From Polytrichum commune (Eukaryota; Streptophyta; Polytrichopsida; Polytrichales; Polytrichaceae): DNA of 64,000 nt. The stretch covers positions 8,432,001-8,496,000 of the forward strand of contig OX485803.1 in the NCBI GenBank assembly GCA_950295325.1, in the 5' to 3' direction. Each line of letters opens with the position of its first letter. Position 1 is the stretch's first letter. Below the pieces are notes generated by a model. It saw only the letters and a program-made list of their open reading frames with translations. It was not told the origin of the DNA and searched no databases. A program made the position numbers and the translations under genes. Of the stretch, positions 9,396-50,727 are shown in pieces.

Positions 9396-12300
9396 TTGAT
9401 AAAAAAAAAAAAGCTAGTGTTGTGGTCACAATGTGTCTCTTAACTCTTAACCCTTGATTGCTTAAGTCATTATAGTCAACAAGTCACGTGAAGATGACAT
9501 GGAAGATGAGCAACTCTCAATTTGAGAATGTTATTTGTCCAAACTTTAAAGTTGTCACAAAGCACATACATGTTACATATGTATGGTTGACATCTAGAAT
9601 TAGCATATTGACATGGTGTGAATTGACGTATGAAAATTTGATTGTAAATATCCATTAAAAATCATACTAGTGTGTTTTATGATGCAAATGTTAATTAGAA
9701 TGACCAAAAGACCCTTTCAATGGTAAGTCACAAAAATTATAACCTCAATGCTAATGAGGGGTTTGTAATATTTATGACTTCCAAGTTGATTACATGCTTT
9801 ATTGACGGTTTCACTTTGAAAATGAAATCCCAATCAATTCTTTTTTTATGCAATGGAAGTGAACATATATATATATATAGGAAATTTGGACCTTGAAGAT
9901 GAAGTGCACTCAATATGGGTTATATGGTCAAGCAACCTTCAAGAATGCAAGGGCAATTTTAATTTTCAAAGTTGGGCAGAGCGGGCAAGAAGCACGGGCT
10001 ACATCCAGGTAGTGAAGGAGGCATGCATGGGGTGGGGCCCAACCTTGGGCAAATGTGATCTAGCATGGGTTCATATGGTGAGGATGAGTTGTATGGCTTC
10101 ATGTGATAGAGAAATCCCAACTCACTCTAGAAACGAGCTTCGACATCACCAAAAAAGAAACCCAAACAAAATTCGACTGTTGAACTAAGCGTGTGCACTA
10201 CAAGTATATATTTGCAAAACAAGACATTCACTTTGAATGATAATTATACAATGCACGATATAATGCTCATATAAAAAATCATGCATTTGCTTGTTTGAAC
10301 TTTCAACCTAAACCCATGGACATCTATGAGGAGTGTTACAACTATTGAATACTTCGAGATGTGTGTTAAACGTGGCCCATACGAAACCACGTGGGTGCAC
10401 GAAACGAGTATTAATTATGCCTAGGGGTTACAATTATACTAAAGGCATGAGTTTTTTATTCTAACTTTGTAAATATACCATGCATATTATTCATTTAATC
10501 CTAGTTGTATTCCTATTTTTAGGCTCACAATCAATCATAACAAAGTGGGTATCTACAATAGCTTCAAATGAATATTTCATCCAATATGTGAACCACATTC
10601 ATAGATGGATTGAGTATCAACAACCAATTGACCTCTTGGACCGGCCTTCCAATATGGAATTAGGGTTATGTTGGTGTCAAAATAAGAATGGATCAATGTG
10701 GACCTATGAGTTGATATATCATTTGATGTTAGAGTTAGATACCATTATTGCATTGGCTATAATGACTTACATTATAGAAAAAAAATTGTATGTGTTACAT
10801 CCAATGGATGGATGAGTGTTTCAACAATTTCATCAATAATAAATAAATAATTAATTATTACTGAGATTATTTTAGTCATAGTTTCCACATGATCTTTTTG
10901 GTGTATACATATGATTGGGGCCTATAGCGTGTTTTGTTTTTTTTTTGGTTTTTTTTCACTTGTGTATGTATTTGAGGAATTTCCTACATACATATTTGTA
11001 TGTACATCACTTCTAGGAGGGGAGGGGGGGGGGGGGATATTGTATGTTAAAGGTTTTAATTTCATGGTCATGCACATGCGTGGTTCTTGGTTCTATCATT
11101 TAGTGCACCCCATGAGTTGAATACACTTGACCATGAAATCTTGGAATCTTTAAAAATTGAAGGTACAAAAAACTTTAATAAAGGAAGCTACAAATGATGA
11201 TGAAGAATACATAACTTGTTTCTCCTTCAATTCTCCAATTGTCAATCATGGAGAACCCCAAAATTGGAAACATACCAACTCCTTGAAACCCTCAACATAC
11301 AACTTAGCCAACATCCCCAAGAGATAGAAAGTATTACTACATACAAAAGATTCAAGTCAACCTAAGTTTGTATCGCCCTCGCATAGAATGCATCAAACCA
11401 TAACCAAGTGGGTGACTTGCATACTCAAAGCTCCTACAAATTTGTAATTCAAGGATCCCATGGGAAAATCAAAGCAACATGATAAACAACATCAAGTTTG
11501 GCACCATAGGTACCATAGGTGGCATGGTTGTAGATGAAACAAATTATTGCGGAGAATATGAAGAAAGAGTGTTTTCTGCATACCCAAGGAGAAAGTTTAT
11601 GTGTCGTTACAATGCTAAAGCTCAAGCTCAAGCTCAAGTGGGGGGAGGGGTGTATACATTAAGAGTCATTTGAGCATATTTGCTTATGCCCATACAACAA
11701 GTTTTTGGGTCTCTTTTTCTCTACTTACTAGTAGTGTAGAAGAAAAAAAGTTGTGCTTGAAAAACATCCTTACTTCCAGTCAAGAATCTCCACCAAAAAC
11801 AACTTATGTCCAAACCAAACTTTATAATCAACTCTTGTTTGTGATCACATTCATTGGCAATCTCCCCATAATAGTTTGAGATTGGGAGTCGGTATTCGCC
11901 ATCATCCATGTACTACATTCTAGTACGACAACATGTACATCGAAAACTCAACACAAACTCAAATTGGGAACAATTAGGTGTCACTTACATGTGCAAAAGA
12001 TGACTCATATCTCCCGAGTCACTACGAAATCGCAACATGACTTATATATTTCATGATACAACATTGTTTGCCCCACTACTTATGGGATATGGTTGAGGGG
12101 ACCTTTGCTTTCGACAGGTTGATTTTTTTTTTGCCTTTCCATGTGACGGGCATAGTTTCACTTTCGCTTTTCTTTCAATGGGCAATATTCATTTCAAACT
12201 TTATGCATGCCTTTCCTTTTTGCTTGGGACGGGTGCCAAAAGGATTAAACTATGGAAAACATAAAAGAGTGTAGTGGGAGCTCCATATTCCCCACATACT

Positions 12301-13301: not shown

Positions 13302-13995
13302 CTTAACTAGAACCTACTCAAAAAAATTTGGAGCCAATTTTTGTAGGTGCATTGGGATAGCCGTAGTGCCTTCATCATAATCGAGAGAGAGCTTTACTTG
13401 GTTTTTAGGAAAGACTTTGTTTATTTGGTAAAGCCATGTGGGGACGGGCCTTAAGCTATACAAGTGTTTCATCCTTCATATGACCTTCTAAGGCCCACTT
13501 TAGTAAGTGACAATAGGTTTTCCCGGTCCATTTTACTAGACTTCTCCGCCTAAACTCTCAACATGAGCCAAATTGGGTCCACTTGTTGGACACCGAACGT
13601 TTATACCGTTGGTCCATTAAAGGTTGATTCTCTTCACTGCACTTTCCCCTCATGAACATGCAAACCTAATATTTACTTGTGACAAGGTTGGGCCTAAAAA
13701 AAATTGATAACATTGGACCGGATTGAGGGCTTAATGCATATGAATCAAGCCAGTGCTTAGGCTAGCACCAAGCCATGTATAAAGGGGGCCTACAAATGGA
13801 TACCTATTGGCAGTTATCATTGGAGGGGACCCCAAAACAAAATGACGAGAAAAATATGTGTTAGCAATCCAATACAAGCAAGTTATTTATTTACTTATTT
13901 ACTTACTTACTTTTTCTTTCTTTCTTTTATAAATTTTATGCACAAGAAAATATACATAGGGTTGGCTTAAAAAATCCTCATCTGCATTGAGACTA
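13302..13995. other. gene-free stretch
   Basis: There is a TTTA/TTAC low-complexity patch at about 13885-13930. Nothing else is recognised. Confidence 0.5.
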
Positions 13996-13999
13996 TATT

Positions 14000-15050
14000 G
14001 CAATTGGGACTATAGGTCCAACATCCGCAGTGCTTGTACCCACACCCTCATCTATATTTTCCTGCGACTATATATGTCTCTTCCAAATCCCTTGCCTCGG
14101 GATCCACATTGACACCACAATAATCATGAAGAATGCGATTAAGTTCTCTTTCCTCCTCATGATGATCAAGTGCCATTTGTTGCAGTTTAAAGTATCTCAT
14201 GTTAGACACCCCAAAACAATATCAAAGACATTGGAGATGTCTTCCATTTCTATATCATGGGGATTCATCACGATTTTTAATACCGATGCGGTCCTCATGA
14301 CATCCATATTGGTGGATCTTGTGGGAATAATTCATGTCCGATTCGGGTAGATCGACCACTATTGCATATGTGAATAGAGTGCCGGGGAGAGTAACACCCG
14401 AATGCTTCTTCATATGGAAACGTGCCCATTGATGAGCCCTTTGCAAAATGCTGCTATGAGAAAGACTCACACGATTGTTCAAACCCACCTTCCCAAACTT
14501 CGCATACTCCAATTTCCCTTCATTCATGTCATCTATAGAAACATTATAATGCACAAACTCAAAATGCTCCTCCCTATTATCTTTGCAACCCAACCATGCC
14601 CAAGAAGGTGTCCAAACCCTTGTCCCTCAACCTCTTGCAAGAGACAACATGATCCATTGGAGGACTCACAACTTGTCCCCAACAAACCTTACTTTTCTTG
14701 TTCAACACCGGTAGATTACTAGAATTCCCCTTCACAACCATTTGAAAATGTTTGTGTTTCAATGCCCCACAATGCCCCATGGAGCACAAGTCCACCACAC
14801 AGTCCTCCTCAATGAACTTCCTCAAATTCACAAGGAGTCCAATGCCGATGTCCATTCCACCCACCACAATTGTCACATATGCTTCAAAATACTTGAATGA
14901 CGGATGCATTTGTTTTTGGTCTTTGAACCGAGCAAGTGCACTCATCCTCAAAGCCATAGCAAGGAGCTCCAAAATCGAGCAACATGCAATGAATGCAAAC
15001 CACCTTCCAAACAAACACAAAAAGCCCATCCAATGAATAGGGAGAACCAA
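14000..15050 (-). mobile_element. broken HUH-Rep element (replitron-like)
   Basis: Minus-strand coding text here resembles a repetitive plant family with HUH-endonuclease (Rep) features. A beta-strand-like YVTIVVGG segment is followed about 40 residues later by GALKHKHFQMV (HKHFQ at 14742-14756), which fits the His-x-His-x-Gln metal-binding motif of HUH nucleases. Downstream text (NREEHFEFVHYNVS, GKVGLNN, LQRAHQWARFHM) belongs to the same family by my recollection. HUH transposons of this kind include the replitrons described in green algae; their Rep nicks one DNA strand using a downstream tyrosine. The copy is broken, with several breaks, and is a fossil. No helicase part or element ends were found, so the boundaries are coding limits only. 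An endogenous Rep of another origin cannot be excluded. Confidence 0.5.
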
Positions 15051-15066
15051 TGATCACATTGATTGT

Positions 15067-15268
15067 CCCAATTAGTGTGTGTTACTATTTAGAGTTACAC
15101 GGTGCAATAACGTCACACTCGTGAGTTCATTTTAACTAACAGAAGTTCAGTAGATTGCCTGAACATTATAGAATATAAATGACCTTGCTTGGCAAAATAT
15201 TCCATTCTCAATAAATAATTATAGCAATGTGTAAATCTAAATAGTATAGTAACACGCACTAATTGGGG
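15067..15268. mobile_element. about 200-bp element with inverted ends
   Basis: The left end CCCAATTAGTGTGTGTTACT is repeated inverted at the right as CCCAATTAGTGCGTGTTACT, with about 27-30 bp related on each side. It abuts the start of the tandem array. No coding capacity; family unknown. Confidence 0.6.
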
Positions 15269-15279
15269 TAAGCAATGTA

Positions 15280-16140
15280 GTTACACATAAACCGGTTGAG
15301 TTTGAGAAATAATTGATTGGAGTTCAAGAGTTCATGCGAATTACGACCGTTCTAAAAGAATCTATGGAATATACCTCCCACTAGTAGAGAGAAGCCGATT
15401 GATCACAACATGTAACCGATTGGACTCGAAACGAAGACACTAGGATCTTGATCGATTATGCGAAAGAAAATCCTCCCCGATCGACCATTGTTGGGAATTA
15501 GCGACCGTTCTAAAAGAATCTACGGAATATACCTCCCATTAGTAGAGAGAAATTAACCGATCGATCATAACATGTAACCTATTGGACTCGGAACGAAGAC
15601 ACTAGGATCTTGATGGATTATGCGAAGAAAAATCCTCCCCGATCGGCCATTGTTGGGAATTAGCGACCGTTCTAAAAGAATCTATAGAATATACCTCCCA
15701 TTAGTAGAGAGAAACCGATCGATCATAACATGTAACCGATTGGACTCGGAACGAAGACACTAGGATCTCGATCGATTATGCGAAGAAAAATCCTCCCCGA
15801 TCGGCCATTGTTGGGAATTAACGACCGTTCTAAAATAATTTATGGAATATACCTCCCATTAGTAGAGAGAAGCCGATCGATCACAACATGTAACCGATTG
15901 GACTCGGAACGAAGACACTAAGATCTTGATCGATTATATATGCGAAGAAAAATCCTCCCCGATCGGCCATTGTTGGGAATTAACGACCGTTCTAAAAGAA
16001 TCTATGGAATATACATCCCATTAGTAGAGAGAAACCAATGGATCACAACATGTAACCGATTGGACTTGGAATGAAAACACTAGGATATTGATGGATTATG
16101 CAAAGAAAAGTCCTCCCCCATCGGCCATTGTTGGGAATTT
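15280..16140 (+). repeat. tandem array, five units of about 160 bp
   Basis: A 64-bp leader (GTTACACATAAACCGGTTGA and following) precedes units starting CGACCGTTCTAAAA at 15344, 15502, 15664, 15822 and 15984, with alternating lengths of about 158 and 162 bp. Units are near-identical and contain AACATGTAACCGATTGGACT. The last unit runs out at about 16138. A single diverged copy with the same leader lies at 40542, so the array appears to be an internal amplification of a dispersed element. Confidence 0.9.
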
Positions 16141-37698: not shown

Positions 37699-40541
37699 GG
37701 TTTCTCACTTCTGCTTGCAACCACAACTGTCGACATACGCAAACTCCACTTTAGCAGGGTAACTGATGAGCCAAAAAAGGAAAAACTTGGAGAGTGCATT
37801 ACAGGACTGCCCATGGTCATTGTATGCTCTTGCTATGAAATACACAGAATGCAGAAATTTGACATCTAGCGGTACTATTGCAATCAACTTGTGATGTTTA
37901 ACAAGATCGTATCGGCTTCTGGCAAAAGCCAATGTGGCCTTTGAACTGCTCATTTTCTTGACAGGCAAATTCGGGATTGTAAACAAGATTCCTTCACCCC
38001 CCAAAAAATGTCGTTGGAGGCCGCCTTGCAACAACCTTATCAGAATACTGCAGCCTGTACTGCGCTATATTACACGCTAGAAGCGAAGTGTTTCTGGTTG
38101 ACAGAGAATCCTAGTGCTCTGGAGACTCATTTTGAATCGTGCCGCATTTTTGAGACAAGTGTCAACTAGCTCGAGGGTTCGACCTGTCTTGTCCAAGCTC
38201 ATTACTAAAAATGCCATTTCTCTGAATATACTATGAGCGCAGGACTAAATTGACTTTGGCTCGACACACGGACATATCGGCAACCGTAAGAGTACGCGAC
38301 CTTACATGAACGCCAGCAAACATAGACACAAGTCGCAGTCTCCACTTACAGTCAGAGTCCAGTCGGTGACAACGACGAACTACTTCAAGTTCTCTCTCAC
38401 GAGCAGAACAGAGAGTGTAAACTTATACGAAAGTGCAACAGAAAACAGCATAAGCATAACAGCAACTGGGGGCCATCATCGTGTAGTAATCAACTCTTAG
38501 GACTTAGAACCTCAACCGATGCAAGCACTCTCGTTGGTTCTCCTAGTAGATGGATGCGTCAACGACGAAAGAATCGAGGGTGCTCATGGTGTGATCCTCA
38601 AAGAGTAATGGCCCGTCCCTTGGGGATAGTAAAGCTCCAAGACTATAAGAAAACATCCTAGCTACATGAATGTGCTGCCAAAGACAGATAGCACGGTTGA
38701 GAGAGTACTCTAGTTAATAGAAACTTAAAGGCTGGAGAGTTGCGAGATCCAAGTGAATAAGAGTTAGAACAATTTCCTCAGCTACAAGTGAATGTCCAAG
38801 TCTAGGACTCTCCTACATGCTTCGTATCACTACGCTACAAGTGCTGCAACGTACAGAAAGAGGCGCTTCAACATTCTTGTTGACGATCGTCTCAGCATTG
38901 TAGACCGGCCTGGGCCAGTGCGCAGCTTCAGGCAGCTACAACTATGGCTGCCTTACCTTGAAATTGAGCACCGCAGTCCTCGAAACTCACACAAAACAGC
39001 TACAGTAAGGAGTACATACTTAGCATACTAGAAAGTCCCAATTCATCAACACCCGATCCCGCACCGCAAACTCCTCGACGCCGAAGCGCGCGTAGCCAAC
39101 TACACTTTACCTCCTAATCCTCCTAATCTCTCTCTCTCTCTCGCTCTCTTAAAGTGTACCACGAGCCAGAGGCCGCTCACATGCGAGCATCGCAACAACC
39201 GAGGAGATCCTAAGCTGAAAGCGGCTCAAAAAAGCTCAAAAAATCTCCGAAAGGCTCATAAGACTTCAATTCAAGGGCCAGACATTGACGCAGAGAGGCT
39301 CACTCGAGTTGTGCACAATGCGGGACAGGGCTTTGGATGCGATGGCGAGGGCATGCAAAGTGAGCATGGAGGCAATGGAATGGAGGACAAGGTGCAGAGA
39401 GCAGCGCGAAAAGGGAGGGAAAGCGAAGGGAAAGCGAAGGGAAGAGCCAGTTTTTTCCCCCTACCGACCCGTCCTGCCCGGGGAGGCCTGCCCGCCCCTG
39501 CACAGGGGCAGGTAGGTATTCTAGCACCGTTGGGCCAGTATATAGGTGAATGGGCGGTATCCACAATAATCAATGTCAACAATAATGGCACCAAAGAACC
39601 TGCCCGTGGCTATCATATTTGTGGGTCATATCCTTCAAGTATTGATACTTGATGGCGTATAACAAGATGAGTGGATCTTTCTATATCAAAGTTCTTATTT
39701 GGGCCAATATCATCATAATATTATGATATTGATATTAGAGTTATAAAGTATGAAGGTTCTTGAACGGTATATAGACCTTAGTGATATTGAAAACAAAAAT
39801 GTCTTTGAATACATGTACCCTATCAATAGCGCATATATAGATAGATAGATAAGAGTATATTGGCCCGACATTGGTTCTTACCTATCCGATAGGTCTTGCC
39901 CACTCTACATGGGGACATGTAGACTGGGAAGTACCTATGTATATCCCAACCTTCTCTATAACTGAGGACATGTCCCGTTAAGAAGCCCAACCTTGCTACC
40001 AACCCACTGCCAATTCAACATGCACGACTACAAGTGCCCCATCCCCAGCTATATACCCTTCCTCTACATACAACATTAAGTTTGTGACCTTGACATTTTA
40101 CATCATCCGTATTTCATATGAATGAGTTGACTCGCTTCTTCCCTATTCCATGCATTGCAAACCACCAATGTATTATTTAAGAAATTGAATATGACATTCC
40201 AACTTCAAAATCATTTCCGTTGAAGCTTTGTTGTGTTTGATACAATAAGGATGTCATTTCCCAACACCTACCATTGGGGACCTTGCAATGAGAACATGCC
40301 CCATATAGATTTGTTATTGACAGATCCTTGTGTAACCTCCACAAAGTAATTTGGTCCATCTCTAATGGGCCAGATTTAGATGTTAATGTGAATTAAAATA
40401 ACAATGCCCGGGCTCTACATAGCAATCGGCGTTTTCACCCTCCCCTTTACCGGGTTCTTAGGTTCTCAAGGTTTGATGGAGGTGGTACGAGCAGGTGGGT
40501 TTCTGTTTACAATTCGGAGAGATTAGTTGGGTTTTGAGCTA
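37699..40541. other. IQD upstream region; no other gene recognised
   Basis: The IQD promoter and leader must lie at the low-coordinate side. A CT microsatellite occurs at about 39126-39148. A GC-rich block at about 39270-39530 has open frames on both strands, none recognised; GCGAAGGGAAA-type short repeats lie inside it. Confidence 0.4.
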
Positions 40542-40748
40542 GTTACAGGTGAACCGGTTGAGTTTGAGAAATAAGCGGTTGAAGTTCAAGACTTCAGAAA
40601 CATTACCGATCATTTAAGAGGAATCTATGGAATATGCCTAGAATTAATAAAGAAAAACCGGAAGATCGCAACCTGTAACCGGTTGGACTTGGAAACACTA
40701 GGATCTTTGACCGAATATGTCCAAAAAACTCCTCGGGCACCGGTTTTG
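40542..40748 (+). repeat. single diverged copy of the 160-bp array unit with leader
   Basis: The leader (GTTACAGGTGAACCGGTTGA, then GAGTTTGAGAAATAA) and one unit (AATCTATGGAATATGCC, CCTGTAACCGGTTGGACTTG, CACTAGGATCTTTGA) match the locus at 15280-16140. There is no tandem amplification here. Confidence 0.8.
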
Positions 40749-50370: not shown

Positions 50371-50727
50371 AGGTAGATGGGTCTTATGAGGTTCGTTTTC
50401 TTGATCAAAGCCCTGGATTTAATTAGTATATGTGGTTCGGTGAGGATCACAAAGCAAACACCATAAAGACACATGTTTAAAGGAGATCGGACTACATCTT
50501 CGAATACTAATAACTACTCTACATTCAATAGTGAACATAAGGACCTTTGTATCCAATAAGAAATCATGCACTTCCGATAACCTTAACTAAATTAGGGGAG
50601 GCCCGATTTTTCAATATGGTTGTTGTAGATGTTTCATCGTAGATTTACTAATGCAACATGAATTTTATTGTGTAAATCTAATTGGAATGTGAAAACCAAA
50701 CCAAATAACACCCACATACCTTAAGCT
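50371..50727 (+). repeat. dispersed repeat, copy 2 (uninterrupted)
   Basis: It matches copy 3 (inverted at 52493) over about 360 bp and copy 1 (19005) over its first two thirds. It holds the unfilled TAA site at 50518-50520. No coding frame; family unknown. Confidence 0.75.

Follow-up and report, generated by a model that had tools for sequence, protein, structure and literature searches.

The 64-kb stretch of moss DNA analysed here (the window) almost certainly carries a degenerate replitron copy, one of an old family in its host genome. Replitrons were reportedly first described by Craig in PNAS in 2023. On the minus strand of the window, at about 14.07-14.96 kb, a replitron Rep is encoded, split over three frames. 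The recognisable extent of the decayed copy is 13820-15000 (minus strand), as delimited by DNA homology to a sister copy, L028 (14079-14998), and by a match to the family's 3' tail that ends at 13824. Read in the direction of the gene, all on the minus strand, the copy consists of (i) a first Rep frame (14580-15053) of 158 residues from stop to stop, with the family start codon at 14957 and 54-66% identity with the best-scoring sister copies, (ii) a second Rep frame (14258-14626), matched by Pfam family PF21859, that begins just past the lost tyrosine motif (CKDNREEHFEFVHYNV...) and runs into the C-terminal half, (iii) a fragment of the replitron C-terminal domain (MDVMRTASVLKIVMNPHDIEMEDISNVF) at 14200-14331, identified by its PF21860 (Replitron_C) match, (iv) a C-terminal Rep fragment (SNMRYFKLQQMALDHHEEERELN...) at 14051-14221, lying past a further frame change and devoid of a Pfam match of its own, and (v) a conserved 3' tail at 13824-13899, with a polyadenylation-like AATAAA, a T-rich part and GGGGTCCCC as the stub of a terminal C-tract. 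The first frame holds both YVTIVVGG (14856-14879), the first strand of the HUH domain, which a low-confidence model of sister copy L011 also renders as a strand (residues 4-12), and HKHFQ (14742-14756), an HUH-type metal-binding motif; the preliminary description, made from the sequence, had reported the two in this order on the minus strand, and they are there as stated, in one frame.

With the open frame of L011 (289 residues) as tblastn query, the window was matched at 14876-14589 (65.6% identity, 121 bits) and at 14602-14072 (42.4% identity, 129 bits, two internal stops), the latter piece spanning the C-terminal Rep fragment. When the same stretch was shuffled 200 times by non-overlapping dinucleotides, the score never exceeded 24.6 bits, and the Rep signal of the window is confirmed as real and far above chance. 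A profile search of the individual translated frames, which had been proposed as a check, gave weak matches in the right order, both under the curated cut-offs: the second frame matched PF21859 (Replitron_HUH) over positions 100-128 of 128 (E 0.01; 16.6 bits, cut-off 28.5), and the fragment downstream matched Replitron_C over positions 43-76 of 77 (E 0.038; 14.8 bits, cut-off 27). The first frame, which bears both motifs, had no HUH or Rep match in Pfam (best, DCTN5 at E 0.13). As both window scores miss the cut-offs and no Rep family matches the first frame, membership of the family rests on the sister copies.

The host genome comprises 407.8 Mb in 64 contigs, and seven of these bear all the replitron places. 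In this genome, PF21859 matched 74 places (E <= 0.001, with 119 candidates scored); its best match, at E 8.3e-14, covers positions 2-127 of 128. PF21860 was found at 32 places. Neither family was found in any of 14 control genomes, a weak control for a eukaryotic family because all that is said of these genomes is that they are well known, and one is a cyanobacterium. We aligned 34 natural frames from 30 loci, the two window frames included, and a Pfam scan of these frames recovered Replitron_HUH in 21 and Replitron_C in 7. The HUH single-strand endonuclease of replitron type that had been proposed for the window is therefore borne out by its sister copies, which match both profiles above the cut-offs. 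The profile built from this alignment had no match among PDB sequences, and comparison with PHROGs returned seven families, each represented by a single member (best E 0.0063).

The alignment also defines the motifs of the family. Among the 23 natural frames with letters in the HKHFQ columns, the first His is kept in 17, the second in 20 and the Gln in 21. GYCMKD likewise keeps its Tyr in 21 of 23; by analogy with other HUH enzymes, this conserved tyrosine is presumably the catalytic one. Because the first His is less well kept than the second His and the Gln, the motif is best read as His-Phe-Gln and not as His-x-His: the His-x-His-x-Gln of the preliminary description is indeed present in the window as HKHFQ, but its conserved part is HFQ. 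In the window copy, HFQ is present and the first frame matches the family up to GMVG, while the second resumes at CKDN, so that the reading frame is interrupted right at the tyrosine motif, with loss of the tyrosine itself. Two further frame changes lie downstream. Given the loss of this motif and the additional frame changes, an active enzyme cannot be expected from the window copy, and the earlier view of it as broken holds, with several frame breaks, internal stops and no tyrosine motif.

Compilation of three genome searches, merged at 1.5 kb, gave no fewer than 142 distinct places for the family, spread over all seven large contigs. The count is a minimum, since each search scored its best candidates only (150 of 223 in one, 135 of 389 in another). 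When the window DNA itself (13820-15060) was used as query, 39 of the 40 matches scored, out of 155 candidates, were other places, the main matches being 71-78% identical, and the closest pair among 34 distinct fetched loci shares about 80% DNA identity. Such low identity between copies indicates that the family is old. Four clusters of Rep matches (C4:31414970-31416140, C1:67028354-67029772, C1:30856075-30857253 and C2:22287782-22289094) are spread over more than 1 kb and are possibly tandem or interrupted copies. At two further loci, L019 and L055, replitron copies share 87-89% identity along most of their length, and the match continues through the 3' end and past it; L055 is devoid of the middle of Rep. 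We considered L055 as a Rep-less derivative and rejected this, since it shares sequence beyond the 3' end and keeps pieces of Rep; the pair is better explained, and probably arose, by segmental duplication with internal loss.

Decay is general in the family. Stops occur in 120 of the 144 matches of one genome search, and the other 24 are partial, except at the query's own place. The best-preserved copy is L011, and the longest open stretch seen outside it is a 231-residue frame in L004, matching 226 of the 289 positions. The family is thus old and mostly dead, its copies mostly broken or partial. Differences between frames nevertheless keep the pattern of a coding sequence: over 14,609 codons, they amount to 0.433 at the third position, 0.226 at the first and 0.206 at the second, and the third position is the most variable in 144 of the 150 pairs that passed the score filter, out of 189 pairs formed from 20 of the 34 frames. 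This excess of third-position differences shows that selection acted on the Rep protein during the spread of the family, which thus has a history of purifying selection.

The sampled copies share both ends, in the same orientation; a search for such shared ends had been proposed as a check in the preliminary description. After the coding region, other copies show a polyadenylation-like AATAAA, a T-rich part, an oligo-C tract and a TTTTAATTAATCAA-like word. A 3'-tail profile was built from ten copies picked because their C-tract is visible; in a leave-one-out analysis, all ten were recovered at the expected place (E <= 7.5e-12, a single locus being searched each time). On 24 loci outside the training set, 7 matched at E < 0.01, all on the coding strand and with the window copy among them (E 6.1e-5 as a held-out match), and 17 had no match at this threshold. 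Across the whole 64 kb of the window, the best of three matches (E <= 1) was 13824-13899 (E 2.5e-4), followed by 50418-50493 (E 0.016) and 11000-11035 (E 0.029). The match reaching 13824 makes the element about 180 bases longer than the start first given for it; an element is present in the 14000-15050 interval assigned to it at that time, but it extends further, to about 13820.

At the 5' end, 260-470 bases upstream of the coding block, other copies show a GCATTGG-like word, an oligo-G tract and an imperfect palindrome (GCCAGACTGGC in L028). The corresponding profile recovered 9 of 9 copies in the leave-one-out analysis (E <= 5.1e-4); of the 25 loci outside this set, 4 were matched at E < 0.05. 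It did not find the 5' end of the window copy, which, by analogy with its sisters, would be expected at roughly 15220-15430. The 5' G-tract and the 3' C-tract mirror each other, with a distance of about 1.5-1.9 kb between them in four copies (L007, L008, L019 and L028). On the reverse strand at the 3' end, the 5'-end profile matched 1 of 34 loci (L006, E 0.11), so terminal inverted repeats are probably not general in the family. The 3' C-tract of L006 (C2:36863 kb) carries an apparent inverted copy of the family 5' end, with weak matches (E 0.86 and 0.11).

A 158-bp tandem repeat adjoins the element in the window, where five copies occupy 15338-16139. A nucleotide search of the genome with this repeat gave 2801 candidates, the best 40 of which were scored, with 44 matches. 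A related unit lies at 40540-40740 of the window and was seen via locus L030.

Several other origins were weighed for these sequences. The first is a domesticated host gene family with dead paralogues, and not a transposon; past purifying selection and the 289-residue open frame of the best copy would fit it, but a host gene family agrees poorly with at least 142 dispersed places on all seven large contigs, with oriented ends common to the copies, and with matches nearly all of which hold stops or are partial. We regard this origin as very improbable.

An equally slight probability attaches to the Rep of an endogenised circular single-stranded DNA virus (CRESS or geminivirus-like). In CRESS-DNA virus Reps the motifs run in the order strand, H-hydrophobic-Q, Y, as in the present family, and the set of strand, HFQ and a YCxK-like motif resembles theirs. 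In the 34 natural frames, however, no Pfam family other than the two replitron domains was matched at E <= 0.01, whether viral Rep, Helitron or helicase; Replitron_HUH is present in 21 of them, the family has its own Replitron_C domain, which sets it apart from CRESS-DNA virus Reps, and its high copy number and shared non-coding ends fit a transposon. Structure was also searched, with predicted models of L011 (34-row alignment) and of the L004 HUH domain alone (26 rows), both with a mean pLDDT of about 63. With both models, Foldseek gave no match at E <= 0.001, viral folds included, and the matches listed were mostly ferredoxin-like and unrelated proteins; ISDra2 TnpA, an HUH transposase, came only at rank 25 (E 0.033), and one weak viral match, parvovirus NS1, at rank 22 (E 0.18). 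These predictions are evidence neither way.

Helitrons are also present in this genome (34 places with PF14214, Helitron_like_N), which might suggest that the sequences are fragments of a Helitron RepHel protein. This origin has next to no probability and is refuted for the sampled copies: Helitron models match none of the 34 natural frames at E <= 0.01, no place is listed for both Helitrons and replitrons, and the C-terminal matches are to Replitron_C. Helitrons share with the present family an HUH endonuclease of eukaryotic transposons, and differ from it in that its 34 frames have no Helitron_like_N or helicase match. On contigs C1-C7, 13 of the 34 Helitron_like_N matches are without an internal stop.

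The replitron assignment suggests how an intact element would have worked. An intact copy encoded one protein of about 290 residues, in which an HUH endonuclease domain (strand, HFQ, GYCxKD) precedes the replitron C-terminal domain. As in other HUH enzymes, the His/Gln pair may hold a metal ion, and the tyrosine would attack one DNA strand at the element end and stay covalently bound to it. Rejoining of the bound strand at a target would then result in a single-stranded, copy-making transposition, with no helicase of the element's own. For the nicking chemistry, the mode of copying and the exact points of cleavage, we infer this scheme by analogy.

Other features of the assembly were recorded. 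The plastid contig measures 146,561 bases, versus 123.5-125 kb in three sequenced mosses, and two stretches of about 10 kb consist of N; 120,000 of its bases were examined, about 20,000 of them N. It encodes tRNA-Pro(GGG) and proteins that we take to be chlB, chlL, chlN, rpoA and rbcL. Pieces of dynein heavy chains gave 19 matches in the genome, and chlB, chlL and chlN as well as dynein heavy chains are not known from angiosperms. Gymnosperm genomes, for their part, are generally several times larger than 408 Mb, and on these grounds a seed-plant host was considered and rejected. The plastid psaA shows about 12 differences in 713 residues from that of Physcomitrium patens (counted by eye). Compared with PDB sequences, psaB scored 1671.8 bits with 7KSQ and two others, 1634.3 with 9LUT, 1601.3 with 7WG5 and 1587.3 with 5L8R; according to PMC11629750, 7KSQ is from Physcomitrium patens and 7WG5 from Arabidopsis. 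The psaA and psaB comparisons make a moss host likely.

The family resembles known replitrons in having both domains in order, a single small Rep and no helicase match in the 34 frames. The host, too, falls within the published range, as the review PMC10741241 lists replitrons in liverworts, mosses, lycophytes and ferns. Rarity in land plants of HUH transposons other than Helitrons had therefore been given too much weight in the preliminary description: with replitrons listed there in mosses and other plants, the window copy is an ordinary member of a known group. The reported length of replitrons is 0.9-4 kb, and the tract-to-tract distance in the four copies lies inside this range. The review also describes direct terminal repeats of 5-11 bp and target-site duplications of 2-8 bp, whereas the present family ends in a G-tract (5') and a C-tract (3'), and its end alignments did not fix direct terminal repeats or target-site duplications. 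A further difference is the age of the sampled copies, given the identity of their closest pair. Among the literature passages naming replitrons that were available to us, none describes this moss family. It is conceivable, if rather unlikely, that the family is a distinct replitron subgroup, characterised by a 5' oligo-G tract with an imperfect palindrome and a 3' oligo-C tract with a TTAATCAA-like word; if this were true, its enzyme would recognise homopolymer ends that mirror each other, where other replitrons have short direct repeats.

The known host range of replitrons is not extended here because the host is not a seed plant; a seed-plant host would have been the surprise. What the finding adds, from a moss genome, is a large and old family of replitrons whose end sequences are usable. 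A comparison across its more than 140 places could help to establish what the ends of replitrons look like and how they decay.
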